From: Halorubrum rubrum
Lineage (GTDB): Archaea > Halobacteriota > Halobacteria > Halobacteriales > Haloferacaceae
Length of the DNA: 64,000 nt
Assembly (NCBI RefSeq): GCF_024494685.1
Contig: NZ_JANHDM010000012.1
Coordinates: 1 to 64,000 of the forward strand
Direction: 5' to 3'
The notes below the pieces were generated by a model that saw only the letters and a list, made by a program, of their open reading frames with translations, was not told the DNA's origin and made no database searches. A program made the translations under genes and the position numbers. Below, piece by piece: positions 1 through 34,355 of this stretch (its first letter is position 1; each line of letters opens with the position of its first letter).

Positions 1-30
1 CTTTTGAGCCAGCGACGCGGCTTGCTTAAC

Positions 31-72: not shown

Positions 73-116
73 GCTTCCGCCTTCAGAGCGACGCTATCCT
101 GCTGCCTTCTGCGGAT

Positions 117-2954: not shown

Positions 2955-3058
2955 GTAATAACAAATCCACACGTCAGCGTGATTAAATAGATGACGGAGA
3001 AACTCACAGATTCTGAATTTTCGCGAGTAGATACCGAGTCGAAACTCTCAGACGGCGA

Positions 3059-3178: not shown

Positions 3179-3182
3179 CCGG

Positions 3183-3479: not shown

Positions 3480-3690
3480 ACCCGCGAGAACCACCTGAGG
3501 AGGCATAAAACATCGCTCCACCGTTCTTCGCTCGAGGCGTGGTTGTCGAACCTCCCGGAAGTCATCCCACCGCCGAACCACCGATCGAAGAATCAAAAAT
3601 CAAGTTTGTTGTCGTGTTTTCGAACGTGAATACACCGAATAAACACATTAACCCCGTATTTTCAAGTTCGGTCGTGACAACGTGTAGTCG

Positions 3691-3948: not shown

Positions 3949-3987
3949 TTCCGCTCGTTTTCCCTCGTCGATCCGTTCGCTGACCGG

Positions 3988-4506: not shown

Positions 4507-4777
4507 CGTACACCTCCGGCTCGAGACGCTCTCGTGTGTCGCACAGTCGCTGCCAGACGGCCACTGCGATCTCTGCTCCTCGGAAAAGTCCGTACATCAA
4601 CCCTGCCGCTACGAGGTAGAACGTCGCGAGGAACGGATACACCACAAGTAGCGGCGTGAGCCGAACCCGGCCGTAGGCCGTCCGCTTCCGCCACTCGCTC
4701 CGCAAATGCGCGACATCGCAGCGTACGCCGTCCACGATCCCGAAGAACGCCTCCGGGAGTTCCTCACTCGTTGTCAT
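4496..4777 (-). CDS. Small membrane protein of the accessory element
   Basis: A 93-aa protein beginning MTTSEELPEAFFG. A hydrophobic stretch around residues 40-68 (LLVVYPFLATFYLVAAGLMYG) predicts one or two membrane segments. A charged tail follows (QRLCDTRERLEPE). The start overlaps the stop of the preceding gene by 14 nt and its stop overlaps the methyltransferase start by 11 nt, typical of translationally coupled viral operons. A longer frame to 5074 exists but lies inside the neighbouring gene. No family recognised. Confidence 0.6.
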   Translation of the reverse strand: MTTSEELPEAFFGIVDGVRCDVAHLRSEWRKRTAYGRVRLTPLLVVYPFLATFYLVAAGLMYGLFRGAEIAVAVWQRLCDTRERLEPEVYDGE

Positions 4778-5078
4778 CGGTCCCCTCCGTGGCGGCGATT
4801 CCAACACCGAACTGTTCCTGGAGGTAGGACTCCAACGGGAGCGTCCGACCCTCCCAGTAGTAGTAATGCGATTCACCGATAAATTCGGTCTCCTTGAGTC
4901 TCGACGGGTCCCTAGGGGCATCGGTCTCGATGTCGAACACTTCGATCGCCTTCGAGAAGCCTGCCGCGTAGGATTCTTCGAGACCCTCCCACACCTCGTC
5001 GGTCTTCCTCTCGTACGCTTCGAACCGATCGATCCCACCGTCGGACTGCTCGGTCTCGCCTCCGTGTTGCTCACTCAT
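4764..5078 (-). CDS. Unrecognised acidic protein
   Basis: A 104-aa acidic protein: a polar N terminus (MSEQHGGETEQSDGG), a predicted helix (FEAYERKTDEVWEGLEESY) and a conserved-looking aromatic patch ESHYYYWEGRTL. No known domain seen. Its ATG overlaps a TGA that ends the short CxxC reading frame upstream (5071-5172), so it sits in the same overlapping leftward operon. Confidence 0.6.
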   Translation of the reverse strand: MSEQHGGETEQSDGGIDRFEAYERKTDEVWEGLEESYAAGFSKAIEVFDIETDAPRDPSRLKETEFIGESHYYYWEGRTLPLESYLQEQFGVGIAATEGTDDNE

Positions 5079-5172
5079 AGGTCGCCAACACCTCGACGAT
5101 CTCCGAGTTCAGACTGTCCTCACAGTCATCGCACGTCGTAATGACACCGTCCGGATTCTCTACCTCAACTAG
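5071..5172 (-). pseudogene. In-frame continuation of the CxxC protein beyond a TGA
   Basis: Directly after the TGA at 5173-5175 the same frame stays open for 33 codons, including TTCDDCEDS, and ends in a TGA overlapping the next gene's ATG (4-nt overlap), as a real gene end would in this operon. There is no ATG, GTG or TTG start inside it. Most likely the original gene was about 117 aa and acquired a nonsense codon; readthrough cannot be excluded. Confidence 0.45.
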
Positions 5173-5424
5173 TCAAACCTCCCACGTTTGTTCTCCACAT
5201 CCATCACACGGTGGCTTCGACTGAGGTATTCCTCCGTCTGTGAGGAGTCTCTGCTGTTCGAAGTCAGGGAGTTCACCGTCGTTCTCTCGCCAGTAGGTGG
5301 CACAGGGACCACAGAGCGTCAGCGCGTGCCAACAGGACCACTTCCAGTTATCGCAGTCGGTAGTCCCGCACCCGTCGCAGCTAATCGTATGACCGGGTTC
5401 GTCTCCGGATCGATCACTCGGCAT
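5173..5424 (-). CDS. CxxC zinc-ribbon protein, possibly truncated by a stop codon
   Basis: An 83-aa protein from MPSDRSGDEPG with several metal-ligand pairs: CDGCGTTDC, CWHALTLCGPC and a C-terminal CDGCG. The spacing suggests one or two zinc ribbons of the kind common in haloarchaeal virus mini-proteins. The last CxxC pair sits 6 residues before the TGA. The frame continues after the TGA with another CxxC (TTCDDC), which would complete a four-cysteine ribbon. The chosen start overlaps the upstream gene's stop by 11 nt. Confidence 0.55.
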   Translation of the reverse strand: MPSDRSGDEPGHTISCDGCGTTDCDNWKWSCWHALTLCGPCATYWRENDGELPDFEQQRLLTDGGIPQSKPPCDGCGEQTWEV

Positions 5425-5596
5425 AGTGTTTCTCCCCCTCGGAGTCAACAGCGTAGATCGCCGTCGGGTCTCCCTCGCCCGGTACTGTTCGTTCGGCTTT
5501 TTTCAACGCAGCCTTGGGTGAGTCAGCCGTCACCGTCTCTGACCACACGGTTCCGAACGAATCCTCAAGCGACACAGAGAACCGCTTACTCGCCAT
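5414..5596 (-). CDS. Small protein, no family recognised
   Basis: A 60-aa protein beginning MASKRFSVSLEDSFGTVWSE and ending AIYAVDSEGEKHYAE. The beta-helix-beta pattern with ADSPKAALKKAERTV in the middle resembles short DUF-type adaptor folds, but I cannot name it. It overlaps both neighbours by 11 nt, which supports it being translated. Confidence 0.5.
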   Translation of the reverse strand: MASKRFSVSLEDSFGTVWSETVTADSPKAALKKAERTVPGEGDPTAIYAVDSEGEKHYAE

Positions 5597-5825
5597 GCGG
5601 GATCACCTCTGAGTCTTCGACGGCCGCTATCTCTGTGGAATCCTCCCGAGATCGGATCAGGTTAGCGTGACAGTTACCGCAGGTCACGCCGCGATAATCT
5701 TCTCTGCCGCCGAACCCATACCAAAGCGGAGTCCAGTCGCGGGCACCGCAGTTAGGACAGTCCGAGTCGGGGCACTCATTCCACTGATCGATCCCATCGG
5801 CGTCTCCATCAGACGAGGTCGGCAT
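5586..5825 (-). CDS. Zinc-ribbon mini-protein
   Basis: A 79-aa protein with one clear four-cysteine ribbon: CPNCGARDW, then TCGNCHANLI about 20 residues later. The flanks are acidic. No catalytic motif. It lies in the overlapping leftward operon (17-nt overlap upstream, 11-nt downstream). DNA, RNA or protein binding is possible. Confidence 0.6.
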   Translation of the reverse strand: MPTSSDGDADGIDQWNECPDSDCPNCGARDWTPLWYGFGGREDYRGVTCGNCHANLIRSREDSTEIAAVEDSEVIPHGE

Positions 5826-6279
5826 ATCCGAACACCTCCGCGTCGCGTTCTAAGTCGAGTCGCCCCGCATCCCGGAGATCGACGTAACATCCGTCGCACA
5901 TCAGCGGTATCTCTACGCGGTTCTCGACGCAGCACGGCCGAAGGTCTGGGTAGCGTTCCCGGCACAGGCCACACCGGACCTGCGGCTCGCGGTTGTAGAG
6001 CCGTTCAATAGCTCCGTCGACTTCCTCACCGCCGTCGGTACGGAGATCTCCGTCCTCCTGGTCGTCGAGAGCGAGCTGTACCTCGGCGGCCGCCTCGCTC
6101 AACTTATCGACAAACTCCTCGGAGGTGACCTCCACCGCTGCCATACTCTCTGACCCGTGGAACTCCACGATCGGGCCATCTGCGTCCGGGCCGGGATCCC
6201 GAATACCGATTCCCTCGAGTTCTCCGAGCCACTCTCCCGAGCGACGGAAGTCGGTGTTATCGTCGTTCTCACCCTTCAT
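5809..6279 (-). CDS. Element protein with C-terminal zinc knuckle
   Basis: A 156-aa protein starting MKGENDDNTDF. The first 100 residues are acidic with a helical segment (EEFVDKLSEAAAEVQLAL). Residues about 105-140 carry CGLCRERYPDLRPCC and CDGCYVDL, a plausible zinc site. An ATG three codons upstream exists, but the chosen one overlaps the upstream 56-aa gene through ATGAAGGGTGA, the usual coupling here. No family recognised. Confidence 0.55.
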   Translation of the reverse strand: MKGENDDNTDFRRSGEWLGELEGIGIRDPGPDADGPIVEFHGSESMAAVEVTSEEFVDKLSEAAAEVQLALDDQEDGDLRTDGGEEVDGAIERLYNREPQVRCGLCRERYPDLRPCCVENRVEIPLMCDGCYVDLRDAGRLDLERDAEVFGYADLV

Positions 6280-6439
6280 AGCCAGCATCCACCTCCTCGA
6301 TCCGATGGGCCGGGAACAGCATCGGCCCGAACGGTTCCGTCCCGCAGCGGACCCAGCCGCTCGAGAGGATCTTCACCTCCTCGTAGACGCTCGCGTAGCC
6401 CTCGTCGAAGTGGACCTTCACGTTCTCGTAGACCGTCAT
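6269..6439 (-). CDS. 56-aa protein of the element operon
   Basis: MTVYENVKVHFDEGYASVYE is followed by a segment containing GWVRCGTEPFGPMLFPAHRI and ends DAGYEG. The stop overlaps the next gene's ATG by 11 nt and the start sits 12 nt after the HNH gene's stop. That fit, and the absence of another ORF in the gap, support it. It looks like a one-domain beta protein. Function unknown. Confidence 0.55.
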   Translation of the reverse strand: MTVYENVKVHFDEGYASVYEEVKILSSGWVRCGTEPFGPMLFPAHRIEEVDAGYEG

Positions 6440-6451
6440 AGCTCACCTCTC

Positions 6452-6973
6452 TCAGACTTCGATCGGCTCTCCGCCGCACTCTCGTTTCGCACACTCCAGG
6501 CACCGCTCGCCGGCGAAGCCGGGCGATGTCGCGAGCAACTCCGCGACCTCGCCGCAGCCGTCGCAGACATCGTCGTCGTCGACGCCGGGCGCACGGCGCT
6601 CTCGCTGGCGTTTCTCGTCTTCGGCCCACGCTCGGACCTCCTTCTGCGTGATCGACGCGTGACGAGCGTGGTCGACCGGATCGAGGTTCTCTCCCCGGTT
6701 GTCCCACTTGACCCCGTTGCGGTGATGGACGTCCTTCTCCGCGAGATCGTCGAGGATCGACTCGATCGGCTCCTCGAGCGGGTAACACTCGACGACCGCG
6801 AGCAGTCGATGGTGTGCGACGTAGACATCTTCGCGTCGCTCTCCCGGCGTGTGCGGGCGGTATTCCGTGGAACGCCACCGCTCGTAGCCTGCTCCGCTCC
6901 CGTGGCCCGGCTTCGCGTGTTCGAACCGGGCGTACCGCTGTACGCGGTTCGAACCGTGATGATAGGTCGACAC
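6452..6973 (-). CDS. HNH endonuclease with C-terminal zinc ribbon
   Basis: A 173-aa protein. The central part (about residues 75-110) has the homing-type HNH pattern: DVHHRNGVKWDNRGENLDPV, where the His pair, Asn and NL are the conserved elements, followed by DHARHAS. The C terminus has CDGCG and CLECAKREC, a four-cysteine ribbon. Such stand-alone nucleases occur in tailed haloviruses and their relics, acting in DNA packaging, exclusion or homing. It sits 7 nt downstream of the PCNA gene on the same strand. Host-taxis or packaging roles cannot be told apart from sequence. Confidence 0.75.
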   Translation of the reverse strand: MSTYHHGSNRVQRYARFEHAKPGHGSGAGYERWRSTEYRPHTPGERREDVYVAHHRLLAVVECYPLEEPIESILDDLAEKDVHHRNGVKWDNRGENLDPVDHARHASITQKEVRAWAEDEKRQRERRAPGVDDDDVCDGCGEVAELLATSPGFAGERCLECAKRECGGEPIEV

Positions 6974-6980
6974 ACCGTCA

Positions 6981-7835
6981 TCACCTGTTCTGGATCCGCG
7001 GCGCGATCATCATCATCACGTGACCGAGCTCGTCCGCGAAGTCGTAGTAGATCTTCACGGGCATCTCCTCGGAGAACTCGACTCGAAGCTCCGTCCCGCT
7101 GTTCAGCGGCTTCAGGATTCCCGCGTACTTGCTGCCGCTCGTCGAGCCGCCGACCAAATAGGGAAGCGAGTACATCCCCTCTGCGTCCGCGTCGAACGTC
7201 GCGTTCGGCAGTTCGTCCGCTCCGAGAACCGTCTGGATCTCGTCGGTATCCCCGTGGCCGCGAACGACCAACGCTTCGTCGTCGACCATCGATTCGAACT
7301 TGACATGGTCGCTGACGAGTTCCGCGTTCTCCACCGCGTCAGTGAGCACACTCGCATCGACTGTGAACTCCACCGAGTGATCGATCTCCGGGATGTCGGG
7401 TTCGTCGCGGATCGTCTTCGGGTCGATCCCGGACATTTCGACTTCGACGTTGGTGTGTTCGATCTCGATCGACCGTGTCTCGGGACGGTAGGAGAGTGTC
7501 ACCGGGTCGTCCCCGCTCGAACCGCTGATGTAGTCGTCGAGCTTCTGAAGGTTCAACCCGATCGGGAACATCCCTTCGCCGACCGATTCGAACGCGCCGG
7601 ACTCGACCTCGACATCGACCATGCCGACGTTCGCGGGATCAACGGCCGCGACCGACAGCCCGTCGTAGCCGATCCGGAAGATCGCCTCGTCGACGATCGT
7701 CAGCAGTTGGTCGACCACCTGCTGGAGCACTTCCGCGCGGATAACGACGGTCAGGCTGTCCATCGCCTCCGTTTCCGTTCCTGCGGTCGCCGCGTCCCCG
7801 TCTCCAACCGCGTCTTCAGCGTCAGAGGCCGCCAT
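6981..7835 (-). CDS. pcn: PCNA-like DNA sliding clamp of the element
   Basis: A 284-aa clamp. After a 25-aa acidic extension comes a two-domain PCNA fold: VIRAEVLQQVVDQLLTIVDE, GLSVAAVDPANVGMVDVEV and a C-terminal LRVEFSEEMPVKIYYDFAD, then the usual last strand (HVMMMIAPRI). Host PCNA is about 247 aa without the extension. PCNA genes are known in tailed haloviruses, where the clamp serves the element's own replication. It may sequester host polymerase or nucleases. Genes on both sides belong to the leftward operon. Confidence 0.88.
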   Translation of the reverse strand: MAASDAEDAVGDGDAATAGTETEAMDSLTVVIRAEVLQQVVDQLLTIVDEAIFRIGYDGLSVAAVDPANVGMVDVEVESGAFESVGEGMFPIGLNLQKLDDYISGSSGDDPVTLSYRPETRSIEIEHTNVEVEMSGIDPKTIRDEPDIPEIDHSVEFTVDASVLTDAVENAELVSDHVKFESMVDDEALVVRGHGDTDEIQTVLGADELPNATFDADAEGMYSLPYLVGGSTSGSKYAGILKPLNSGTELRVEFSEEMPVKIYYDFADELGHVMMMIAPRIQNR

Positions 7836-8197
7836 CAGACACCACCTCCGAGGTCGTCGTCGGTCACGTCTTCGGCGTCGGTACTCTCGTCGATCTCGGT
7901 GGTGTTGTCACTCATGCTCGGTGTCTCCGCGAATAGCTCGGTCGTCTCCTCGATGCTCTCCGGCACCCCACGCAGCGTCTCTTCTAGTTCCTCGGCGGAG
8001 ATCCCCGTCGGAGCTTCCACGAGGATCGAGACATCGCCCTTCTCGACGCTCGCCAGCACTCGTTCTCCGACTACGTCGACGTCGAGGACCGCCGGATGTT
8101 CCGTGGCCGCTGTCGCCGGCGGCTCTCTCGCCGCCGTTCCGCCGTCCATTGCGACGGTTTCACCGTCCTGTTCTGCCGTGCGATGGTGATCAGTCAT
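7835..8197 (-). CDS. Acidic protein, unrecognised
   Basis: A 120-aa protein. Residues about 38-80 form a compact-looking beta-alpha unit (AVLDVDVVGERVLASVEKGD, then ISAEELEETL). The tail is Thr/Asp/Glu-rich (STDAEDVTDDDLGGGV). It overlaps the PCNA start by 1 nt and the AbrB-like stop by 8 nt. A longer in-frame start at 8290 was rejected because it runs through the AbrB-like gene. Confidence 0.5.
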   Translation of the reverse strand: MTDHHRTAEQDGETVAMDGGTAAREPPATAATEHPAVLDVDVVGERVLASVEKGDVSILVEAPTGISAEELEETLRGVPESIEETTELFAETPSMSDNTTEIDESTDAEDVTDDDLGGGV

Positions 8198-8426
8198 CGG
8201 CCACCTCCACCGAAAAGCCGCCCTCGCTGCCGGGCTTGTGGATCGTCGCCTTCGTCGACCCCTCTTCGGCCGTAAAAAGGAGGTCGTCACCGTGTTCGAG
8301 ATCCCACTCCATCGCCAGCGACCGCGGGATCGTCACGGTGAAACTCCCGTCCCCCTCCTGAATCCGCCGTCCTTCGGCCATGAACCGCGTGATCCCCTCC
8401 GCTTTGTAGCCGTTTGATTGGCTCAT
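8190..8426 (-). CDS. AbrB-like DNA-binding protein
   Basis: A 78-aa protein with the AbrB/SpoVT core: GDGSFTVTIPRSLAMEWDLE, then HGDDLLFTAEEGSTKATI. The SFTVTIPRSLA strand-turn is the recognisable signature. It may act with the 3691-3948 protein as an element regulator. It overlaps genes on both sides by a few nt. Confidence 0.7.
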   Translation of the reverse strand: MSQSNGYKAEGITRFMAEGRRIQEGDGSFTVTIPRSLAMEWDLEHGDDLLFTAEEGSTKATIHKPGSEGGFSVEVADD

Positions 8427-8935
8427 CGCTCCACCTCCGCACTCGCCAGCTCGTCGAGTCGTTCTCGCGTCTTCCCACCGTCCGCGACCGCCTCACCCGC
8501 GGTCTCCGTTTCCGGTTCGGCTGTCGTATCAGCACTGATCGACCCGTCTTGGAGCTTCCCGACCACGATCGAGACATGATGAACTCCCTGGTGGAGCGCG
8601 ATCACGTCTTCGCGCTTCAGCGGCTGAATCACCACCTTCCGCACCGCGTCCTTCTGGATGTTCAGATGGTTCGCGAGGATCGACTCCGCCGTTCCGAGTT
8701 CGATCCGACCACCGTGACCGGTCCACTCGACGAGCTTCCGGTGGCCTTCCTTCGCTTTCACCGGCAGCCCGCTTTCCTCGCGACCGGTGTCGGTGTCGTC
8801 GTCGCCGGCGTACGTCGTCGCGACTGCGTGACGAACCGCATCTGCCAGCGACCCGTGTTCCTCCTCGGCTTCCTCAAGCGACGCGAGCAGGTCCGTGTCG
8901 CGGATCGTCGCCTTCGCGACTCTCGACTCGCTCAT
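8423..8935 (-). CDS. Element protein with possible winged-helix segment
   Basis: A 170-aa protein starting MSESRVAKATIRD. The N terminus resembles a short ribbon-helix-helix strand followed by helices (TDLLASLEEAEEEHGSLADA). Residues about 85-140 alternate helix and strand (AESILANHLNIQKDAVRKVV), compatible with a winged helix. This is the first gene downstream of the operator-bearing gap at 8936-9203, so it may be the element's repressor or the head of its main operon. The GGTGGG just before the ATG could serve as a ribosome-binding site. The identification is weak. Confidence 0.5.
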   Translation of the reverse strand: MSESRVAKATIRDTDLLASLEEAEEEHGSLADAVRHAVATTYAGDDDTDTGREESGLPVKAKEGHRKLVEWTGHGGRIELGTAESILANHLNIQKDAVRKVVIQPLKREDVIALHQGVHHVSIVVGKLQDGSISADTTAEPETETAGEAVADGGKTRERLDELASAEVER

Positions 8936-9203
8936 CGGCCCACCCCCCAACGCCTGCGGGCGGACCCACGGCCGCATAATGCGCAGCGGCGCGCGCGCCG
9001 CATAAAGTCCGCGCGCCGTCGCACGGATGCGTCACGTAGGCAGCGATTTCGACACACCCCCGTACCCTCGTACGACTTTCTAAATCCGGGTCGAGAAGCC
9101 TCGAAGGACGGGATAACTGCCGAACCGGTGTCGTACGACGGGGTCGCGGAGTCGTACGACTCGTACACTCCAGTTGTTCCACGCGAAACAGTCGAAACGA
9201 GGG
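8936..9203. promoter_or_regulatory. Control region with TCGTACGA palindromes
   Basis: No convincing gene. The palindrome TCGTACGA occurs at 9068-9075, 9131-9138 and 9152-9159, with a half site (TCGTAC) at 9161-9166. The centres are 63 and 21 bp apart, both whole multiples of two helical turns, so all sites face the same side. A second pair, GCCGCATAA at 8971-8979 and 8997-9005 (26 bp apart), gives TTATGCGGC twice on the coding strand and may include the TATA elements of the 8935 gene. It looks like a cooperative operator in front of the main operon. Confidence 0.6.
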
Positions 9204-9656
9204 TCATCGGTCGACACCTCCGTCAGCCGCGACCGGCTGACTCGTCTCGGCTTCGACGCGATCGTGTTCGACATCGTCGACAGTGAGCCACCACGGAGGC
9301 GAGAGGTGCGTCCGACCGGTGTCGAGGTCGGTGACGCCGAGGTCGTCGCGGCTCCACCGCCACCAGAGCAGCGCGATGTGCGCGCACCAGCCGCGGAAGC
9401 GGTAGCCGTCGCAGTCGCATTCGGCGACGAGGTCACCCTCGTAGACCGCGAACAGCACGCGGTGTCGCGCGAGGCCGTCGTCCTCACGGCCGAGCAGCAC
9501 GTCGAACTCTGCCGGGTTCACCGGACCGACCGTCGACGGCGCGGCCTGTGCGCGCCGCCAGCTGGAGGACATGGTCCATCCATCCGGGAACTGGAGACGG
9601 TCGGGCTCGCCGAGACGGTTCGCGATCTGTTCGCGCTGCTCGTCGACTCCGGTCAT
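9204..9656 (-). CDS. SWIM zinc-finger domain protein
   Basis: A 150-aa protein. About residues 80-100 carry CDCDGYRFRGWCAHIALLWW, matching the SWIM pattern CxCx(n)CxH. Flanking strands (HRVLFAVYEGDLVAE) and the Trp-rich WWRWSRDD follow. SWIM domains bind DNA or proteins and are common in haloarchaeal mobile elements. The ATG overlaps the stop of the upstream zinc-ribbon gene by 4 nt, and its own stop marks the left edge of the operator region. Confidence 0.75.
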   Translation of the reverse strand: MTGVDEQREQIANRLGEPDRLQFPDGWTMSSSWRRAQAAPSTVGPVNPAEFDVLLGREDDGLARHRVLFAVYEGDLVAECDCDGYRFRGWCAHIALLWWRWSRDDLGVTDLDTGRTHLSPPWWLTVDDVEHDRVEAETSQPVAADGGVDR

Positions 9657-9844
9657 AGATCGATCCCCGGAACTCGTTCAGTGACGAGGCATCCCGTCAT
9701 CTCCTCGCGGTTCGGTCCGAAGTGGTAGGTTCCGGTTCGACGGCACGAGACACACCGATAAACTTCCCAGTGTTGCGGTCCACTGTCGGGGTCGCTCCCT
9801 TCTTCGATCTCGACGGAAGCGCCGCACTCACAACGGAGCGTCAC
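9653..9844 (-). CDS. Zinc-ribbon mini-protein at the head of the leftward gene run
   Basis: A 63-aa protein with GTG start: MTLRCECGASVEIEEG, then YRCVSCRRTGTYHFG, a clear CxC...CxxC ribbon. It is the first gene of the leftward run, next to the tRNA-Tyr end. A TATA-like CATAGTTGA lies about 25 nt upstream. Confidence 0.6.
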   Translation of the reverse strand: MTLRCECGASVEIEEGSDPDSGPQHWEVYRCVSCRRTGTYHFGPNREEMTGCLVTERVPGIDL

Positions 9845-10020
9845 GCGCTACACCCCCGTTCAACTATGGGAACCGCAGTACGGCGGGCGGGGGCGACGGG
9901 TTCCCCGTCCCAATCCACTTTCACCCCGACTATTTTCGTTCTCCGATGATCGGGGAAGGAAGTCTCTCCGGCCCGATTACGGGCATTTCCGGTACTGCTA
10001 CGATTCGGCGAGAAAGCTAG

Positions 10021-10094
10021 TCCGCCCTCCCCGAATTGAACGGGGGACAAGCCGATCTACAGTCGGCTGCTCTACCAGGCTGAGCTAAGGGCGG
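10021..10094 (-). tRNA. tRNA-Tyr (GTA)
   Basis: A 74-nt cloverleaf on the minus strand. The acceptor stem CCGCCCT pairs with AGGGCGG plus discriminator A, the D-arm contains TAGCTCAGCCTGGTAGAGCA, the anticodon loop CTGTAGA gives GTA, and the T-arm is CCCCCGTTCAATTCGGGG. No intron. Its 3' end faces the low-GC accessory segment, the usual geometry for archaeal tRNA-targeted integration. I found no second copy of the 3' end in the window. Confidence 0.95.
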
Positions 10095-25717: not shown

Positions 25718-26251
25718 TCACCCGAAGAGCGCGTTGAGGTACACCCACCGGTCGGTCCACAGCTGGTAGCCGAGCGAGACCGCGAACGCGGCCAGGAAGA
25801 CGCTGACCCAGAGCACGGGGTCGAGCGCCGAGATCACCGGGACGCCGATCAGCGCGGCGAGGACGACGAAAAGCGAGAGCGTGCCGAGCAGGCTGTAGTA
25901 CTCGCTCCAGGTGATCCCGTACGGCGTGACGACCTCCATGTACACGTCGACGGAGCGGGCGTCCTCGGCGAGCCGGATCGTCTTCCGATCCGACTCGTAC
26001 TCGACGATCCCGCGTCTGTCGAGCTTCGGCAGGTGCGTCTGGTGGAGCGAGTTGTAGACGCTGTTGCGGACGTTCTTCGGCGGGGGTGACTCGCCGGTCT
26101 CGTGTTCGGCGATGGTCTCCGCGAGCTCCCGAAGGGTGGTCGTTCCGACGGTCTCCTGGAGATGCTTGATCGTTCGACACCTGCGTTCGTTGCGCAGCAG
26201 GTCGTGGATCTCCGTTTCGGGGAGCCCCCCGTATCGATCGGTTATCGCCAT
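25718..26251 (-). CDS. Membrane-anchored HTH regulator (DUF7344-like), copy 1
   Basis: A 177-aa protein. The winged-helix part (about 10-90) reads EIHDLLRNERRCRTIKHLQE, then SVYNSLHQTHLPKLDRRGIV, with EYESDRKTIRLAE as the wing. Two hydrophobic segments follow ITWSEYYSLLGTLS. It starts MAITDRYGG; a longer frame begins 45 nt upstream. It faces away from the exported-protein genes across a 502-nt gap. Three paralogs lie at 32155, 32738 and 33720, sharing NERR, QTHLP and the WSxYY/WxxYYLGLS motif before the first membrane span. Confidence 0.8.
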   Translation of the reverse strand: MAITDRYGGLPETEIHDLLRNERRCRTIKHLQETVGTTTLRELAETIAEHETGESPPPKNVRNSVYNSLHQTHLPKLDRRGIVEYESDRKTIRLAEDARSVDVYMEVVTPYGITWSEYYSLLGTLSLFVVLAALIGVPVISALDPVLWVSVFLAAFAVSLGYQLWTDRWVYLNALFG

Positions 26252-26753
26252 GTGTCGTGATCCGACCCGTGTCTGAGTCGGGTCACCGATACACACACGA
26301 CCCCCCCACGTAAGTACGCGTTACCTACGGCGAGCCGCCCCCCGGCAGGGTCACCATGATAAACGACTGGCAACGCACGTCGGGTTAGCTCGGGGCCATG
26401 CGGCCACGGTCCCGATCTACCCCTCCCGTCGTCCGGTCCACGACCGGGACGTAACCATCCGTTAGGAGCGCACATTGCGAGCAGTGCGTGCGTACTCGGA
26501 ACGGATCTTCGAGGGGATTCCGTCGCCGTCGGCGATCGTTGCCGATCGATCTCGATCCCTCGATCCGGCCGAACCGGTCGGTCGGATCGGTGGCTCAAAC
26601 GGGCGCTTTACTCTGAGAAACGACACGTTGATGGCCAGAATACGACGTTTCAGGGTCCAACGGCGGCGTTTCATCAGAAATGGTGTGATTGGCTAAGGGG
26701 GTGGGTGTCGTGGCCATCTACCACGCCCGGCGAGCGAGTCGGGGTCGATCCAC
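26252..26753. promoter_or_regulatory. Divergent intergenic region before the exported-protein trio
   Basis: 502 nt without a convincing gene; frames here are short and arginine-rich. It must hold promoters for the leftward HTH gene and for the first exported protein. GACGTTTCAGG and GGCGTTTCATC form a near repeat about 26650-26675. GTCGTGG and CCACGCC around 26706-26728 can pair into a hairpin over CCATCTA. No 44-bp repeat of the kind before the second and third genes is present. Confidence 0.5.
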
Positions 26754-28202
26754 ATGCCAGACGAGAAACTCGAACTGTCACGGCGGAACGCACTGATCGG
26801 GCTCGGAACCGTGGGGGCCGCCTCCGCGGGAGCCGGGCTTGGAACGAGCGCGTACTTCAGCGACGAGGAGAGCTTCGAGGACAACACGCTGGAAGCCGGC
26901 GAGCTCGACCTGTTCGTCGACTACTGGACGGACGCGAACTCGGAGGCGATCGACGGGGGGACGACCGGAAGCGACCAGAACGACGGCGACGTATCGATGG
27001 AGTACGTCCTCAACGACCTCAAGCCCGGCGACTCGGGCAAGCTGGTGTTCTGTCCGAAGATCGTCGACAACCCGACCTGGCTGTGGGCGGGGAGTAGCGG
27101 CTTCACCCAGTACGAGAACGGCCTGACCGAGCCCGAGGAGGACGTCGACGACACGGGCGGCGACCGCGGCGCGGGCAACGGCGAACTCGCGGACAACGTC
27201 CACGTGACGGTCGCGTACTGTGAGCCGACGGAGGACGAACCCGAAGGCCCGGACGACTTCGACACGGTTCGCGAACTCGACAACCCCGAGGACTACACGC
27301 TCGCTGACCTCCTCGTCGAACTCCAGACCGGATATCTGTTGGACGGGTTGGTGGAGGACGACGACGAGTGGGTGCCGACGGACGACGGCGCGTATCCGGC
27401 CAGTCCCGACTCGGACACCCAGACGGGACCGTGTCTCTGTATCGACTGGAACGTGCCGACCGCCGTCGGCAACGTGATCCAGTCCGACTCGGTCGAGTTC
27501 GACATCGGGTTCACGGCCCAACAGTCCCGGCACAACGGCGACCCGGACAGCCCGTTCGTCGATGCGGTCCTGACGAGCGATGCGACCGGCGGAATTCGGG
27601 CGACCGACAGCTGGATCACGGCGTCCGTCAGCGCGGGTCCGACCACCGTCGTCAGGATCGATCTGGACGGTGACGTCTACGGCGGCGGCGATTCAGGCGA
27701 GGGCGAGTGGCCCAGCAACGAGGACGTCTACTTCATGGAGGCGAACATCGACGTCGACAACGACGGGATCGACGAGGCGGCCAACGACGACGACTTCCGG
27801 GTCGGATACGCCGCGGAGAACTCCGGCGCGAGGGCCGGAGCGATCTCGAACAGCTCCTCGGGAGCCAGCGGCGACGGCGGGTACATCCGCCGAAACACCG
27901 GGGGTTCGAGTAGCGGTGATTCGGCGGCCCGAACCGACGTGGCCGAAGAGGACGTCCCCGGCTTCTCCGCCTACGAGAGCAGCGATCAGCTGTCGTACAC
28001 GTTGGTGATCGACTGGTCCGCCGTCGCCGGCGACGGCGATTCGCCCACGGCCGATCTGTCGAGCGCACCTACGGAGATCCAGATCAACGAGGTCTTCGGC
28101 GGTGACGGGGGCGAGGGCGTCGGCGCCACGCCGAACAGCTCCAACGACGGTCGCGGTGACGTTGATACCACCACCGACGGCTCGGGAACGCTTCAGATCT
28201 AA
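26754..28202 (+). CDS. SipW-type exported protein with unique C-terminal domain
   Basis: A 482-aa acidic secreted protein. The N terminus has a twin Arg (LSRRNALIGLG), a small-residue core and TSAYFSDEESFEDNTLEAGE, the SipW/TasA/camelysin signature. The framework continues with DLKPGDSGKLVFCPK, ELADNVHVTVAYC, and NVIQSDSVEFDIGFTAQQSR (about 240-258). Unlike its two neighbours it has no vWA insert. Instead it has about 200 further residues with a beta-rich stretch (VVRIDLDGDVYGGGD, LSYTLVIDWSAV) and Ser/Gly linkers. It is probably a fibre or surface subunit; no SipW peptidase gene is nearby. Confidence 0.8.
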   Translation: MPDEKLELSRRNALIGLGTVGAASAGAGLGTSAYFSDEESFEDNTLEAGELDLFVDYWTDANSEAIDGGTTGSDQNDGDVSMEYVLNDLKPGDSGKLVFCPKIVDNPTWLWAGSSGFTQYENGLTEPEEDVDDTGGDRGAGNGELADNVHVTVAYCEPTEDEPEGPDDFDTVRELDNPEDYTLADLLVELQTGYLLDGLVEDDDEWVPTDDGAYPASPDSDTQTGPCLCIDWNVPTAVGNVIQSDSVEFDIGFTAQQSRHNGDPDSPFVDAVLTSDATGGIRATDSWITASVSAGPTTVVRIDLDGDVYGGGDSGEGEWPSNEDVYFMEANIDVDNDGIDEAANDDDFRVGYAAENSGARAGAISNSSSGASGDGGYIRRNTGGSSSGDSAARTDVAEEDVPGFSAYESSDQLSYTLVIDWSAVAGDGDSPTADLSSAPTEIQINEVFGGDGGEGVGATPNSSNDGRGDVDTTTDGSGTLQI

Positions 28203-28227
28203 GACGGCACAGCCGCGGAACCACCAA

Positions 28228-28271
28228 CCCACACGGTGTACGGCGGTTCGACTCCGCCGGTGGGTTTCCCC
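28228..28271 (+). repeat. 44-bp intergenic repeat, copy 1 (tRNA-minihelix-like)
   Basis: Identical to 29855-29898. GGCGG-TTCGACT-CCGCC is a 5-bp stem with a 7-nt loop matching the tRNA T-loop consensus TTCRANY. ACCCAC on the 5' side pairs with GTGGGT on the 3' side, like an acceptor stem, with about 8 nt between. It ends 18 nt before the ATG of the second exported protein. RNA-level control or a processing site is possible. Confidence 0.75.
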
Positions 28272-28284
28272 CTCGGGGGGTGAA
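28267..28284 (+). promoter_or_regulatory. Hairpin over the ribosome-binding region, gene 2
   Basis: CCCC-CTCG-GGGG folds directly after the 44-bp repeat. The GGGGGGTGA part is one base from the SD consensus GGAGGTGA and sits 6-7 nt before the ATG at 28290. Folding would hide it. The third gene has the same stem with loop CGAG. Confidence 0.55.
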
Positions 28285-28289
28285 CGCAA

Positions 28290-29798
28290 ATGAGCGACAA
28301 CAACGGATTCAAGATATCGCGGCGGAAGGCGCTCGCCGGGCTCGGCGGCATCGGCGTCGCGAGCGCGGGCGCCGGACTCGGCACGAGCGCCTACTTCAGC
28401 GACGAGGAATCGTTCGAGGGCAACTCGCTCACGGCGGGCGAGCTCGACCTCAAACTGGACTACAAGGCGACGTACGCCGGCGGTCCGGGGCGACTAGACG
28501 AGATCGACGGCTGGTACAGCGACGACGGCCCCGGCGAGCCGTTCGACGTCGAGGAGATCGAGGACGGGACCTACCTGATCGGCGAGGTGCCGAACGAGAC
28601 GGACGACATGTGGGCGGATGAAGTCCAGGACACCGACCTCTGCGCGCCGGATCTGGGTCTCGTCAACGGCGACGAGATCCCGGTCTTCGTCCTCGACGAC
28701 GTCAAGCCCGGCGACTCCGGCGAGGTCACCGTCAGCCTCCACGTCTGTGACAACGACGCGTGGATGTACATGAACGGGGCGCTGACGGCGAACGACGAGA
28801 ACACCGTCACGGAGCCGGAGGCGGACTCGGGTGAGGAGGACAACGACGAGACCAGCGATCCGATCGACGGCGAGGGCGAGCTCGCGGACGCGATCGAGAC
28901 CACGCTCTGGTACGACGAGAACTGTAACAACGTGCTCGACGGGGGCGAGGACGACACCACCTCGGTCCCTTCGTGTGTCCAACTCGTCCTCGACACGTCA
29001 GGATCGATCGGCGGTGACATCGACACGGTTGAGGACGCGGCTAACGACCTCGCGAACGACATCCTCGACGCCAACGACGACAACGCGGTGGGTGCGACGA
29101 CGTTCGCCGACGACGCCGACGTGGTGAACAGCGTCACCGAAGACTGGTCGGACCTCAGCGATTTGCCCGCGACCGGTTCGACGGGCATGAGCGACGGGAT
29201 CTCCGAGGCTGGAGACGACCTCGAGGACTGTCCCGATGACCACGACCGCATCATGGTCATCTTCACCGACGGCGCTCCCGACAGCCAGTCGGCGGCCGAG
29301 GATGCTGCGGACGCACTCCCCGGCGACATCGAACTCTACGCGATCGGCGTTGCGGGGGCGAACAAGGAGTTCCTGGAGGACCTCACCGGCGATGAGGACA
29401 ACGTCTTCGTCGTCGCCGACGACACGACCGCGGAGGAGGCTATCGAGCAGGTGTTCGCCCAGGTCGGGCAGACGATCACCGGCGGCGAGGAGGTCATCGA
29501 GGAAGGCTCCCTCGCCGACGTGATGGACGCCCTCGAGGACGGGATCGCCCTCGACGGGAATCGCTCCAGTGAGGACCGCGAGCCCTTCGCGGGCGCGATG
29601 ACCCACTGTCTCGGCTTCGAGTGGGAGGTTCCCACGGACGTCGGCAACGAGATCCAGACCGACTCGGTCGCGTTCGACCTCGGGTTCTACGCGCTCCAGA
29701 GCCGGCACAACGACGACCCGCCGGCGGAGCCGTTCAACGGGACCTACCAGGACGACAACGGGCTCCCGTCCAACGGGACCGCGAACGCGTCCGACTGA
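28290..29798 (+). CDS. SipW-type exported protein with nested vWA domain, copy 1
   Basis: A 502-aa acidic protein. The N terminus is ISRRKALAGLGGIGVASAGA with TSAYFSDEESFEGNSLTAGE. DDVKPGDSGEVTVSLHVCDN and TTLWYDENCNNVLDGGE follow. A vWA domain (about 230-395) is then inserted, with MIDAS residues DTSGS (235-239), a Thr in TGSTGMSDG and the Asp of FTDGAPD. The host framework resumes at SLADVMDALEDGI and ends with CLGFEWEVPTDVGNEIQTDS, VAFDLGFYALQSR. The metal site suggests ligand binding or adhesion outside the cell. The tandem neighbours are paralogs. Confidence 0.85.
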   Translation: MSDNNGFKISRRKALAGLGGIGVASAGAGLGTSAYFSDEESFEGNSLTAGELDLKLDYKATYAGGPGRLDEIDGWYSDDGPGEPFDVEEIEDGTYLIGEVPNETDDMWADEVQDTDLCAPDLGLVNGDEIPVFVLDDVKPGDSGEVTVSLHVCDNDAWMYMNGALTANDENTVTEPEADSGEEDNDETSDPIDGEGELADAIETTLWYDENCNNVLDGGEDDTTSVPSCVQLVLDTSGSIGGDIDTVEDAANDLANDILDANDDNAVGATTFADDADVVNSVTEDWSDLSDLPATGSTGMSDGISEAGDDLEDCPDDHDRIMVIFTDGAPDSQSAAEDAADALPGDIELYAIGVAGANKEFLEDLTGDEDNVFVVADDTTAEEAIEQVFAQVGQTITGGEEVIEEGSLADVMDALEDGIALDGNRSSEDREPFAGAMTHCLGFEWEVPTDVGNEIQTDSVAFDLGFYALQSRHNDDPPAEPFNGTYQDDNGLPSNGTANASD

Positions 29799-29854
29799 AC
29801 CGTCCACGAGAGTTCGGGTCTCCGGGTCCGCCGGAGCCCGAAACCCGGCCACGA

Positions 29855-29898
29855 CCCACACGGTGTACGGCGGTTCGACTCCGCCGGTGGGTTTCCCC
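29855..29898 (+). repeat. 44-bp intergenic repeat, copy 2 (tRNA-minihelix-like)
   Basis: Base-for-base identical to the copy at 28228-28271, although the flanking DNA differs. It ends 18 nt before the ATG of the third exported protein. The identity between two non-coding copies suggests selection or recent duplication. Confidence 0.75.
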
Positions 29899-29908
29899 CG
29901 AGGGGGAT
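29894..29908 (+). promoter_or_regulatory. Hairpin over the ribosome-binding region, gene 3
   Basis: CCCC-CGAG-GGGG, the same stem as before gene 2 with the loop exactly reverse-complemented. GGGGGATGAGG just beyond could be the ribosome-binding site for the ATG at 29917. Confidence 0.5.
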
Positions 29909-29916
29909 GAGGACAC

Positions 29917-31680
29917 ATGAGCAACCACGACACATTCGAACTCTCGCGGCGGAAGGCGCTCGCGAGCCTCGGCGCGGTCGGCATCGCGAGCGCGGGAGCC
30001 GGGCTGGGAACGAGCGCCTACTTCAGCGACGAGGAATCGTTCGAGGGCAACGCGCTGACCGCGGGAGAGCTGGACCTGAAGGTCGACTGGGAGGAACACT
30101 ACTGGGACGACTTCGACGTCGGCGTCGACGTCGATCACGTCGATAGCGCCGAGGAGGTCGGCGACGACCAGGTCGGGCTTCCCGATCCGGAGAACCCGAT
30201 GATCGCCGTGAGCGAGGAGGACCTGGAGACGTTCATGGACGGGACCGCGATCGAGGCGTTCCCCGACCCGAACGACGACGGGGTCCAGGAGATGAGCCTC
30301 GAGGAGCAGGAGTTCTCCTACCAGCCGTGCGAGCACGGCGCGGACATGGCCGAACACCTCGATCCGACGAACGGTTACCGTAGCGACACCGACGACACGA
30401 TGGGTTCCGACGGGACTCCGCTCCCGCTCGTCAACCTCGACGACGTCAAACCGGGGGACTTCGGCGAACTCACCCTGAGTCTTCACCTCTGTGACAATCC
30501 GGGGTACGTCTGGCTCCAGGCGGCGGACGTGAACGAGAGCGGCGGGGCGAATCCGGAACCCGAACGGGAGGCGGAAGGCGACGACGAAAACGACCCCGAC
30601 CTGGCGGAGAACGTCCGGACCGCCTGGTGGTACGACCCGAACGGCAACAACGTCATCGACACGTCGATCGGCGAGGTCGACGTGATGATCGCGGTCGACA
30701 CGTCGGGGTCGCTCGGTCAGAGCGAGGTTGACGACCTGACCAGCGAGGCGAACGACCTCGCGAACGACCTCGACGCGACCGGGAACGCCCGAGTCGGCGG
30801 ACTCTCGTTCGGGAACGGCGCGGTCGACGACTTCACCGCGCTGGCCGACGGGCCCGTCCAGTTCTCCGGGCTCTCCGCGGGCGGAAACACGCCGATGCCC
30901 GCGGCGCTCGACGTCGCGGCCGAGGAGCTGTCCGTCAACGGGCGATCGAACGCGGAGACGTTCATCGTGATGTTCACCGACGGCGGGCCGAACTACCCGA
31001 ACGCCGGGTACGACGAGTTCCCGATCGACGGCGGGTACACCCCTGGCGATTACACCGAAGGCGATCCGAGCAACGCCGTCGTCGAGGACGCGGAACTCTG
31101 TGAGACCGCAGCGGTCGCGGACGCGGTCCGGGCCGATCACCGGATCCTGGCGGTCGGCATCAACGACGCCGGGTCGATCACCGGCAACTCGGACGCGAAC
31201 GTCTGTGCGGACGGACCCGCCGTGGCGACGCTCAAAGCGTACCTCCGGGACCACATCGCGGGCGACGACGCCGACTACTACAGCGCCGCCGCCGTCGACG
31301 ACATCGGGACGATCCGCAACGACATCCTCGAGAACGTCGCGATGACCGAGGAGGTGTTCCATCGAGGAACGCTCGCTGACGACCTCGAGGCCCTGGCCGA
31401 CGGAAACGGGATCCCCCTCGACGGAGATCGCTCGACCGAGTTCGACGAACTCGCCGACGATCCGGACGACGAGAACCGCGAGTGTTTCGATCCGGGCGTC
31501 ACGAGTTTCGTCGGGTTCGCGTGGTGGCTCCCCCGTGAGGTCGGCAACGAGGTTCAGGGTGATACCGTGAGCTTCGATCTGGGATTCTACGCCGAACAGT
31601 GTCGGCACAACGACGGGAGCGGCCAGACGATGAACGGGTCCGAGTCGAACACCGATTCCGGAACTACGGGGGCACCGTAA
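29917..31680 (+). CDS. SipW-type exported protein with nested vWA domain, copy 2
   Basis: A 587-aa acidic protein. LSRRKALASLGAVGIASAGA and TSAYFSDEESFEGNALTAGE open it. An insert of about 90 residues (DDFDVGVDVDHVD to GSDGTPLPL) precedes DDVKPGDFGELTLSLHLCDN. After WWYDPNGNNVIDTSIGE the vWA domain (about 255-475) carries DTSGS (261-265), GGNTPMPAAL and FTDGGPNYP, a complete MIDAS. The framework returns at GTLADDLEALADGNGI and ends FVGFAWWLPREVGNEVQGD, VSFDLGFYAEQCR. A Cys pair (AELCETA, ANVCADG) inside vWA might form a disulfide. Same family as the preceding gene, with larger loops. Confidence 0.85.
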   Translation: MSNHDTFELSRRKALASLGAVGIASAGAGLGTSAYFSDEESFEGNALTAGELDLKVDWEEHYWDDFDVGVDVDHVDSAEEVGDDQVGLPDPENPMIAVSEEDLETFMDGTAIEAFPDPNDDGVQEMSLEEQEFSYQPCEHGADMAEHLDPTNGYRSDTDDTMGSDGTPLPLVNLDDVKPGDFGELTLSLHLCDNPGYVWLQAADVNESGGANPEPEREAEGDDENDPDLAENVRTAWWYDPNGNNVIDTSIGEVDVMIAVDTSGSLGQSEVDDLTSEANDLANDLDATGNARVGGLSFGNGAVDDFTALADGPVQFSGLSAGGNTPMPAALDVAAEELSVNGRSNAETFIVMFTDGGPNYPNAGYDEFPIDGGYTPGDYTEGDPSNAVVEDAELCETAAVADAVRADHRILAVGINDAGSITGNSDANVCADGPAVATLKAYLRDHIAGDDADYYSAAAVDDIGTIRNDILENVAMTEEVFHRGTLADDLEALADGNGIPLDGDRSTEFDELADDPDDENRECFDPGVTSFVGFAWWLPREVGNEVQGDTVSFDLGFYAEQCRHNDGSGQTMNGSESNTDSGTTGAP

Positions 31681-31792
31681 CACAACCGCGGATCACACGG
31701 ACGTGTACATTCGAGGACCGACGTCGAACGCAAGCCGATCGCCGTCAACGGTGAACTCATCCATTGACGACGTGAATACCGACGGGCCGGCT

Positions 31793-31832
31793 CTCGATCG
31801 ATCCGCGGGGCCAGCCCTCGATCGATCCGCGG
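31793..31832. repeat. 16-bp direct repeat
   Basis: CTCGATCGATCCGCGG occurs at 31793-31808 and again at 31817-31832, a 24-bp period. It lies in the gap after the exported trio; the core CGATCG is palindromic. A regulatory site is possible; nothing else identifies it. Confidence 0.6.
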
Positions 31833-31938
31833 AACGGATTCGCTCGGACGCGGTGGGACACGGCCCGTCCGCGAGACCGGTACGGTCCGTCTCGACTGAC
31901 CCGCGGAACGGCGGTAACGTCGGAAATAAAACCGAGCG

Positions 31939-32109
31939 ATGAAATCGAACGACCAACCGGACGATCCGCGGCGTCCCAGGATCGGTCGTATTCGCCTCGA
32001 TAGCGGCCGAACCGGCGGCTATCGCCTCCTGACGAAACGGAACGTGCTCCGGCTTTTGGTTCTGCTTTTGATCCTGATCCCGGTCGTCGATTACCTTCTG
32101 AACCTGTGA
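31939..32109 (+). CDS. 56-aa single-pass membrane protein
   Basis: Begins MKSNDQPDDPRRPRIGRIRL, a basic cytosolic face, then a hydrophobic span LRLLVLLLILIPVVDYLLNL ending at the stop. AATAAAA lies 12 nt before the ATG. It sits between the exported trio and the HTH pair and points the same way as the trio, 258 nt after it. It might be a small membrane partner; function is unknown. Confidence 0.45.
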   Translation: MKSNDQPDDPRRPRIGRIRLDSGRTGGYRLLTKRNVLRLLVLLLILIPVVDYLLNL

Positions 32110-32154
32110 GTTCCGGAGTCGGACGCTCGAGCCGGTTTCCTCCGGCGAGCGCGA

Positions 32155-32727
32155 TCACTCCTCGTCGAGGCCGGCACCCAGGCGGTTCCGGTTCGTCTCC
32201 CGGACGCAAGCCGCGGACGAAGTCAGGAACGCGAGGATGATGAACCCCAGGAGGGCGGCCACGGGAAGCGAGCCGAACGGCGGGACCCCGAGTGCCTTCA
32301 ACCCGAGGAGGGCGGCGCCGACGAGCGAGAGGCCGAGGAAATAGTAGCTCCAGGGGATACGGCTCTCGGGGACGGGTTCAAGGTAGAACTCCACGCGGCG
32401 GGCCCTGCTCGTGAGATCGACGCGGCCCGTTTCGGGGTCGTAGCGGATCACGTCGCGCTCCTCCAGCATGGGGAGGTGCGTCTGCGTCAGTCCGGAGTAG
32501 ACGCGCTTTCGCTGCCTCGCGGTGAGTTCGTCGGAGGAGACGCCGTTCTCGCGTGCGGCCACGTACTCGACGAGGTCGTCGAACGCGACCGGACGATCGG
32601 CGTGCGCCTTCAAGAACCGGAGCACGTGTCGTCGTCGCTCGTTGCGGAGGATCTCGAAGACCGTTTCGCGGGGGATCGTCTCCTCCGCGACCGCGGCTCG
32701 AACCGTTTCTTCGAGCGGTGAACGCAT
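32155..32727 (-). CDS. Membrane-anchored HTH regulator (DUF7344-like), copy 2
   Basis: A 190-aa protein. The winged helix (about 20-105) includes EILRNERRRHVLRFLKAHAD, RKRVYSGLTQTHLPMLEERD and IRYDPETGRVDLT. Two membrane spans follow IPWSYYFLGLSLVG. It lies 10 nt downstream of copy 3 on the same strand, so the two are probably one transcript. Confidence 0.8.
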   Translation of the reverse strand: MRSPLEETVRAAVAEETIPRETVFEILRNERRRHVLRFLKAHADRPVAFDDLVEYVAARENGVSSDELTARQRKRVYSGLTQTHLPMLEERDVIRYDPETGRVDLTSRARRVEFYLEPVPESRIPWSYYFLGLSLVGAALLGLKALGVPPFGSLPVAALLGFIILAFLTSSAACVRETNRNRLGAGLDEE

Positions 32728-32737
32728 CGCCGATCAC

Positions 32738-33334
32738 TCAGGTCCGCCCGGAGGGGCGTCGGTGAAGAGCGTTTCGGCGGGTTCGGTACGTGTGAACGCT
32801 CGACGAGACGAGAAACGCCGCGACGATGATTTCCGCGGTCGATAAGGAGACGACGCCGAAGGTCGTTCCGACGAACACGGCTCCGAGAAAGAGCAGGACC
32901 GCGACGAGCGAGAGGCCGAGGTAGTACCGCGCCCAAGGGATCTCGTTTTCGGGGACGTAATCGAGGTAGAGCTGGACATCGGCCATGCCGTCGGTCGGCC
33001 GGAGCTCTCCGCGCCGACCGTCGTACTCGATCACGCCGGTCTCGTCGAGCTTCGGGAGGTGCGTCTGCCGAAGCGCCGTGTACACCCGCTTCCGTTCGGC
33101 GTACTCGACGTCGCCGACCCGCTTGTCGTTCTCCCAGGCGGCGATCGTCTCGACCATGTCACCGAGATGGAACTGCTCCTCCGAACGCTCTCTGAGGTAC
33201 CGGAGCACGTACCGCCGCCGCTCGTTACAGAGGACGTCGAAGATCTCGTCGTGAGTCGGGCCCTCCGATCCGGCCGAACCGGCGTCTGAGGGGGCCATCT
33301 CGTCGGTCGTCGTGAGCTCGGTGTGTCCCCCCAT
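32738..33334 (-). CDS. Membrane-anchored HTH regulator (DUF7344-like), copy 3
   Basis: A 198-aa protein. After about 30 polar residues comes EIFDVLCNERRRYVLRYLRE, RKRVYTALRQTHLPKLDETG and VIEYDGRRGELRPTD, then two spans after IPWARYYLGLSLVAV. The start at MGGHTEL fits an AATTTTTG box about 33 nt upstream; the longer frame to 33382 starts inside that promoter. First gene of the leftward pair. Confidence 0.8.
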   Translation of the reverse strand: MGGHTELTTTDEMAPSDAGSAGSEGPTHDEIFDVLCNERRRYVLRYLRERSEEQFHLGDMVETIAAWENDKRVGDVEYAERKRVYTALRQTHLPKLDETGVIEYDGRRGELRPTDGMADVQLYLDYVPENEIPWARYYLGLSLVAVLLFLGAVFVGTTFGVVSLSTAEIIVAAFLVSSSVHTYRTRRNALHRRPSGRT

Positions 33335-33719
33335 CAGGACGGGGACTACAGAAGGGGAGCACAAAAATTTAATTAATTTCACATTATCTGGGGAACAAAT
33401 CGAGAGACCGAACGCCGATCGACCCGTTCTCCTCGCCTAACTATAAGAAAAAAGAAGTATAGAAACTGTTAATGTGTGACGAGGTATCTAACAGTGTGAC
33501 GATACCACGGCGGCCGCGAGCGCTCGCGCTCGGCCGCCGGGTCACGGAGGCAGAAACTCCTCGAAGGGGGCTGCCGTCCCCGGAAACAACTACCTCGCGC
33601 GGAAGCAGTCGCCGTTCGCGAGCGATCGGTCGTACAGTTCTCGGAGGCCGTGTAGCCTTCGAACTGCGACCGACCCGGTCCGATCGGAACCGACGGACGA
33701 ACAGGAGACGAGACCCAAA
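33335..33719. promoter_or_regulatory. AT-rich divergent promoter region
   Basis: 385 nt between two divergent HTH genes. It contains AATTTAATTAATTTCACATTAT around 33367-33390 in two AT blocks and CTATAAGAAAAAAGAAG near 33440-33456, much AT-richer than the surroundings. GTGTGACGA occurs at 33473-33481 and 33494-33502, 21 bp apart, a possible operator pair. No gene is supported. Confidence 0.5.
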
Positions 33720-34355
33720 ATGGATCAGATATCATCGGAACGAGACGACGTACTGGACGGCGATCCAGGCGAGCCGGCGGATCCCGTGGCGGCCGAGAAC
33801 GACGTTGTGGCGGACGACCGGGATGCAGCGGACGACGGAGGAGGTGAGTCGGATCACATTCCGACGGACGAGGTGTTCGCGCTGTTGAGCAATGGACGGC
33901 GCAGGCACGTGCTTCGGTTCCTCCGACGAAACGGCGGGGAGATCAAGCTCCGCGAACTGGCGACGGTCATCGCCGCCGAGGAGAACGGGGTCGAGCCGGT
34001 CGAGGTGACCTACACACAACGGAAGCGGCTCTACACGTCGCTGTACCAGTCACACCTGCCGCGGATGGAACGCAGCGGCGTGATCGAGTACGATCGGAAC
34101 TCGGGACTGGTGACGCTCGCCGCGGCGGCGGGCGACTTCGACGCGTACCTGGAGGTCGTCGGCGAGAACGAGTTCACCTGGTCGGAGTTCTACCTGGGAT
34201 TGACGGGGCTCTTCGCCGTGGTCACCCTCGCGTACGCCACCGGAACGCCCCCCTTCGCCACGCTCGGTCCGGCCGCCGTGATGACCGCGATGACGGTCCT
34301 GCTTCTCGTCGCCGCGGTCGCACACGTCCGGTACACCCGTGGTCGGCAACTCTGA
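33720..34355 (+). CDS. Membrane-anchored HTH regulator (DUF7344-like), copy 4
   Basis: A 211-aa protein. An acidic N-terminal 55 residues precede the winged helix: EVFALLSNGRRRHVLRFLRR, RKRLYTSLYQSHLPRMERSG and VIEYDRNSGLVTL. After ENEFTWSEFYLGLTGLFAVV come two membrane spans and a short basic tail. It is divergent from copies 2-3. The NERR motif reads NGRR here and QTHLP reads QSHLP, so it is the most diverged copy. Confidence 0.78.
   Translation: MDQISSERDDVLDGDPGEPADPVAAENDVVADDRDAADDGGGESDHIPTDEVFALLSNGRRRHVLRFLRRNGGEIKLRELATVIAAEENGVEPVEVTYTQRKRLYTSLYQSHLPRMERSGVIEYDRNSGLVTLAAAAGDFDAYLEVVGENEFTWSEFYLGLTGLFAVVTLAYATGTPPFATLGPAAVMTAMTVLLLVAAVAHVRYTRGRQL

Follow-up and report, generated by a model that had tools for sequence, protein, structure and literature searches.

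Gene layout of the window cluster

Within the window, by which we mean the whole 64,000-nucleotide stretch of Halorubrum rubrum DNA analyzed here, three tandem genes encode proteins that are acidic and of exported type as judged from their sequences, and these are surrounded by four genes for winged-helix proteins with membrane spans and by a 56-aa membrane protein (Table 1). The initial annotation had described this trio at the same positions, and the blocks it had noticed in all three proteins, AYFSDEESF, the KPGD.G strand and GN..Q.D...D.GF, are confirmed and hardly vary among 23 relatives. Its LHxCDN wording holds for genes 2 and 3, but gene 1 has PKIVDN instead. We regard the 56-aa open reading frame, also picked out there, as a real gene because it is conserved beside the same genes elsewhere. 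The first part of the window (positions 1-10094) resembles an integrated element: its G+C content drops from ~71% to 57-65%, it contains numerous short ORFs on the minus strand as well as an ORF similar to cytosine methyltransferases, and it extends to a tRNA-Tyr gene (10020-10094).

Table 1 Features of the window cluster (positions in the window)
Feature	Position	Strand	Description
Divergent DUF7344 gene	25718..26296	-	winged helix + two membrane spans; position kept in 43/49 clusters
Divergent promoter region	26297..26753	.	sequence shared by window, L015, L023, partly L029; C24-type motif absent
Gene 1	26754..28202	+	482 aa; Tat/SipW-type signal, TasA-like core (residues ~36-266), slot empty, variable C-terminal domain
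Gene 2	28290..29798	+	502 aa; Tat/SipW-type signal, TasA-like core split by nested vWA domain
vWA domain of gene 2	28965..29486	+	residues ~226-399; MIDAS DTSGS...T298...D327
Gene 3	29917..31680	+	587 aa; Tat/SipW-type signal, TasA-like core split by nested vWA domain
Gene 3 slot: vWA domain and linkers	30673..31350 (approximate)	+	
56-aa membrane protein	31939..32109	+	single span; kept beside same genes in 3 other loci
DUF7344 gene	32155..32727	-	
DUF7344 gene	32738..33382	-	
DUF7344 gene	33720..34355	+	

The exported proteins have a TasA-type core

The predicted structure of the gene 1 product is weak as a whole (mean pLDDT 45) and better in its core (about 70 for residues about 50-260), and its top structural match is the TasA fibre (8aur; Z 9.2, 3.6 Å, 156 residues), followed by the TasA monomers 5of2 and 5of1 (Z 8.7), with the next unrelated chain at Z 6.2. 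For an approach by profile, we built a profile from 43 insertion-free cores and compared it with TasA, using a query sequence identical to the 8aur chain. The profile aligned over the full length of mature TasA (hhalign E 2.9e-6, probability 76%), and hmmsearch gave 8.2e-5, while the best of 2000 shuffles reached 0.08. The alignment pairs the KPGD strand and the C-terminal block of the two families, NKYQGNSIKLQFSFEATQ in TasA with NEIQTDSVAFDLGFYALQ in the window family, and the near-invariant N-terminal block AYFSD.E.F..N...AG..DL aligns with the donor-strand region of TasA. By model and profile, then, the three exported proteins share a TasA-type jelly-roll core, with the structural part of this evidence coming from a gene 1 model of low mean confidence. 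No family match was found for the C-terminal domain of gene 1; its paralogue in a second cluster of the same genome (on contig C24, described below) carries a choice-of-anchor W domain.

The core has one insertion slot that mostly holds a vWA domain

Genes 2 and 3 match the Pfam VWA family above its cut-off (47.3 and 31.4 bits, respectively) and gene 1 has no match above it. In both proteins, the domain is nested between the WYD..N strand and the LAD helix with all MIDAS residues present, while gene 1 has a short loop at the same site and a C-terminal extension, exactly as the initial annotation had read them; in none of the window proteins is the vWA domain a separate C-terminal tail. Two distant relatives do have this other arrangement, being TasA-like proteins with the vWA domain at the C-terminus instead of in the slot (L043:7572-9332 and L054:7378-9288). 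The MIDAS residues D235, S237, S239, T298 and D327 (gene 2 numbering) are invariant in 16 relatives. The gene 2 vWA domain is modeled with confidence (pLDDT ~90, Z 22.8) and resembles integrin-type and pilus-tip vWA domains, among them that of the type V pilus tip protein Mfa5 (Z 21.8).

To display where inserts fall, we counted those of 60 aa or more in 133 non-redundant relatives: 28/133 have one before the KPGD strand, 73/133 have one between the WYD strand and the next helix, and a single insert lies elsewhere. The WYD-strand/helix site, which we call the slot, corresponds to the TasA loop TVGKEGGNGYPKN. Their concentration at a single model position is in part an effect of the alignment procedure, but the sequences on either side of the inserts, as aligned among the relatives, agree with a common site. 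This single slot is filled by a vWA domain in 58 of the 73 proteins (at least 54 of these domains have all three MIDAS motifs in a simple text test) and by other sequences in 15. A candidate propeller-like domain in the slot of L014:11507 has sub-threshold Pfam matches only. Over 1653 pairs, the mean identity is 33% in the slot and 48% in the framework, so the slot changes faster. Two pairs depart from each other in a telling way: gene 2 and its L029 counterpart are 91% identical in the framework and 51% in the slot, whereas the proteins of L033 and L059 are 43% and 64% identical, respectively. From these sequence identities, the slot seems to have been diversified and sometimes exchanged between proteins.

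Export signals and a second cluster in the same genome

The SipW-type N-termini that the initial annotation had assigned are recognized by TIGR04088 (28.5, 29.9 and 29.7 bits for genes 1-3; cut-off 19), but they are of Tat type (SRR.AL.GLG), unlike the Sec-type signals of Bacillus, and a Tat-like twin-arginine motif is present in 133/133 relatives. By hydropathy, the window exported proteins have neither a membrane span nor a C-terminal anchor. N-glycosylation sequons occur at 8.2 per 100 aa in the C-terminal tails as compared with 0.63 in the bodies.

The genome has eight SipW-type signals, all within two clusters, of which the second (locus L013, on contig C24) is a complete copy of the arrangement: as in the window, a protein without an insertion is followed by two with a vWA domain. 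In addition, it contains two shorter relatives, an acidic SipW-signal protein and a signal peptidase, which scores above the cut-off for archaeal signal peptidase I and at 117.6 bits, under the cut-off of 190, for SipW. One type of short relative (L013:14109-14900 and its counterparts) has the TasA C-terminal block and lacks the AYFSDEESF donor-strand motif; it is found in most peptidase-bearing clusters and could be a cap or initiator subunit.

A SipW-like signal peptidase is present in 40/49 clusters but absent from that of the window. In the closest orthologous cluster (L015, Halobellus captivus), the peptidase gene lies between the exported genes and the block of the 56-aa and DUF7344 genes, and because the peptidase is kept there within the same layout, the window cluster would most simply have lost it. 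The peptidase-less layout is also seen in Halorubrum cibi (L023) and G009 (L029), and each of the three genomes with such a cluster has a second cluster that includes the peptidase.

DUF7344 genes and the divergent promoter

All four proteins that the initial annotation had described as HTH proteins with two membrane spans match DUF7344 (PF24035; E 5e-26 to 2e-29, 91-102 bits; gathering score 27.8), a family without a described function; our literature search found no paper naming DUF7344 and none on haloarchaeal TasA. We located 49 clusters across many genera by their exported proteins and not by DUF7344. In 43 of them, the first exported gene has a divergent DUF7344 gene no more than 1.5 kb upstream, where 0.13 would be expected from the density of DUF7344 genes in 33 genomes; because the clusters share ancestry, this count should not be read as a probability. 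The co-occurrence in other haloarchaea on which the initial annotation had staked its reading is thus observed. In this genome, 11 DUF7344 genes score above the cut-off and five of them are at the two clusters, and two more adjoin exported proteins resembling the solved 'Pilin' 9p0a. The latter loci (L066, G000:C23:20000-39900, and L067, G000:C1:130000-142357) combine DUF7344 with exported GTGAF-type proteins like that pilin and with DUF1102, and L066 also has an archaeal-type signal peptidase. Elsewhere, a divergent DUF7344 pair lies amid glycosyltransferase and sugar-nucleotide genes (L065:9201-10577, G000:C25:148-150 kb). Haloferax volcanii likewise has both SipW-type signals and DUF7344. 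The linked DUF7344 proteins are probably locus-specific regulators, and the family could regulate haloarchaeal filaments more generally.

The proteins consist of an N-terminal winged helix followed by two adjacent C-terminal membrane spans and have no evident outside domain. Because this build leaves no room for one, there is no structural basis for the self-sensing, or reporting of surface state, that the initial annotation had attributed to them, and this part of its proposal finds no support. Sensing inside the membrane or via a partner such as the 56-aa protein is possible.

In the divergent regions of C24 type, the dyad TCGAAC-N5-GTTCGA occurs in 9/41 at ≤1 mismatch (0.1 expected), and CGTAACTA occurs in 13/41 (0.35 expected), at a fixed distance from GTTYG. 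The composite GTTYG-N17-CGTAACTA is found exactly once in each of 11/14 genomes, always at the cluster, and its reversed control has zero occurrences in the 14 genomes; because this set includes the genomes in which the motif was discovered, the search adds only the absence of the motif elsewhere in each genome. The window has no copy of the C24-type motif even with up to 2 mismatches allowed, and its intergenic region matches the dyad with 3 mismatches at best, about what chance would give. Other blocks in that region are shared with L015 and L023. The ~60-100 bases directly before gene 1 (26640-26753) are near-identical across genera in these loci, and this is not conservation of a reading frame, since the window copy is shorter by one base ahead of the ATG; the stretch is a possible leader or promoter element.

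Discussion

The window cluster is probably a modular adhesive-fibre system, given the TasA fold of its exported proteins, the vWA domains in one loop and the regulator genes in a conserved place. More specifically, we put at about 60% the probability that it encodes TasA-type filament subunits that are assembled by donor-strand exchange, carry swappable vWA adhesins and are under DUF7344 control. The subunits would be exported via Tat and cleaved near the TSA/YFSD junction by a signal peptidase of SipW/archaeal type; having no enzyme of its own, the window cluster would depend on processing in trans by the enzyme encoded in the genome's other cluster. Once released, the N-terminal strand (YFSDEESF...) would fill the groove of a neighboring TasA-like core, and this donor-strand exchange would build or cap a fibre, with the Asn-rich tails presumably N-glycosylated. 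In genes 2 and 3, the MIDAS-bearing vWA domain on the core loop may bind a ligand on a surface, in the matrix or on a partner cell in a metal-dependent manner, and gene 1 would display its C-terminal domain in place of the vWA domain. The membrane-bound DUF7344 proteins are predicted to bind the divergent promoter through their winged helices and to switch the operon. The weak gene 1 model, the predicted Tat export of folded subunits (TasA is exported by Sec), and the missing signal peptidase and C24-type promoter motif of the window cluster all count against the fibre reading. The cluster also contains no obvious candidate for a small major pilin, and subunits of 480-590 aa with a bulky insert might serve only at the tip or the side. 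All in all, the surface-fibre proposal of the initial annotation gains from the TasA fold, the SipW-like peptidase of the sister clusters, the nesting in one loop and the DUF7344 synteny, and it loses its self-sensing component.

The proteins could instead be monomeric adhesins, secreted or bound to the S-layer, in which the TasA fold is a scaffold that does not polymerize. They are large and very acidic, no C-terminal anchor or membrane span holds them, and vWA domains are common in non-polymeric adhesins, with LapA as an example (PMC7616799). However, a monomer would hardly account for a near-invariant block that matches the donor-strand region of TasA, nor for operons that encode several paralogous subunits along with a SipW-like peptidase of their own, and we consider it unlikely, at roughly one chance in a handful. 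A further reading takes the Pfam name Peptidase_M73 of camelysin (PF12389) at its word and makes the proteins secreted proteases. Some relatives do exceed the gathering cut-off of 22.5 bits (up to 27.6), but the window proteins stay below it (15.5-18.7 bits), and the matches are confined to the signal and the first strand. With HExxH absent from all three window proteins and the fibre protein TasA as the nearest solved structure, we rejected this highly improbable reading.

The DUF7344 proteins, for their part, could be structural or assembly proteins of the membrane that happen to contain a winged helix, and not regulators of the fibre genes. Their two membrane spans would suit such a role, and promoter binding is only predicted. 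Nevertheless, they are placed divergently across a conserved, cluster-specific promoter motif, and the two further genes of the family in this genome adjoin other exported pilin-like genes, which makes a structural role quite improbable in our judgment. Returning to the reading of a regulated, donor-strand-assembled filament, we would extend it only speculatively: the loop of a TasA-like subunit might serve haloarchaea as a cargo slot for recognition domains, vWA among them, that are exchanged and diversified, with each cluster under its own membrane-bound DUF7344 protein. Uses of the slot domains such as partner recognition, attachment or escape from viruses are a similarly tentative thought.

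Profile matches are found in 116/145 sampled genomes of the class, some of them resting on one part of the protein only. TasA-like donor-strand fibres were previously known from Bacillus and a hyperthermophilic archaeon, and the clusters described here would make them a widespread haloarchaeal system with a tractable genetic layout, exemplify the display of adhesins on a fibre loop and give the uncharacterized DUF7344 regulators a first functional context, together with a candidate binding site.

Comparison with known systems

The archaeal bundling pilus (AbpA) of Pyrobaculum calidifontis is described as a TasA-related donor-strand filament (PMC9674648, PMC9715654), and the descriptions on which our comparison draws mention no grafted domains; AbpA was not among the structural matches listed for the gene 1 model, which excludes nothing. 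The solved 'Pilin' 9p0a has a similar twin-arginine start, but its similarity to the window proteins is confined to the signal region (E 0.0082). With the tip adhesins Mfa5 of type V pili and SpaC of sortase pili, the likeness, by structural or profile match, is in the MIDAS-bearing vWA part only: their fibre frameworks are unrelated, and no sortase signal or lipobox was seen in the window proteins.

The closest counterpart is the tapA-sipW-tasA system of Bacillus subtilis (PMC9674648), which has the same jelly-roll core, SipW-type signal, KPGD strand and multi-gene operon. The C-terminal block of TasA, N..Q..S....F.F.A.Q, has its counterpart in the window family, and a dedicated SipW-like peptidase is common to the TasA system and the sister clusters, though not to the window cluster. 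Unlike TasA, the haloarchaeal proteins have Tat-type signals and N-glycosylation sequons in their tails; their clusters have 2-6 paralogous large subunits, and DUF7344 takes the place of SinR. The vWA and other domains, finally, sit in a loop that in TasA is simply TVGKEGGNGYPKN.
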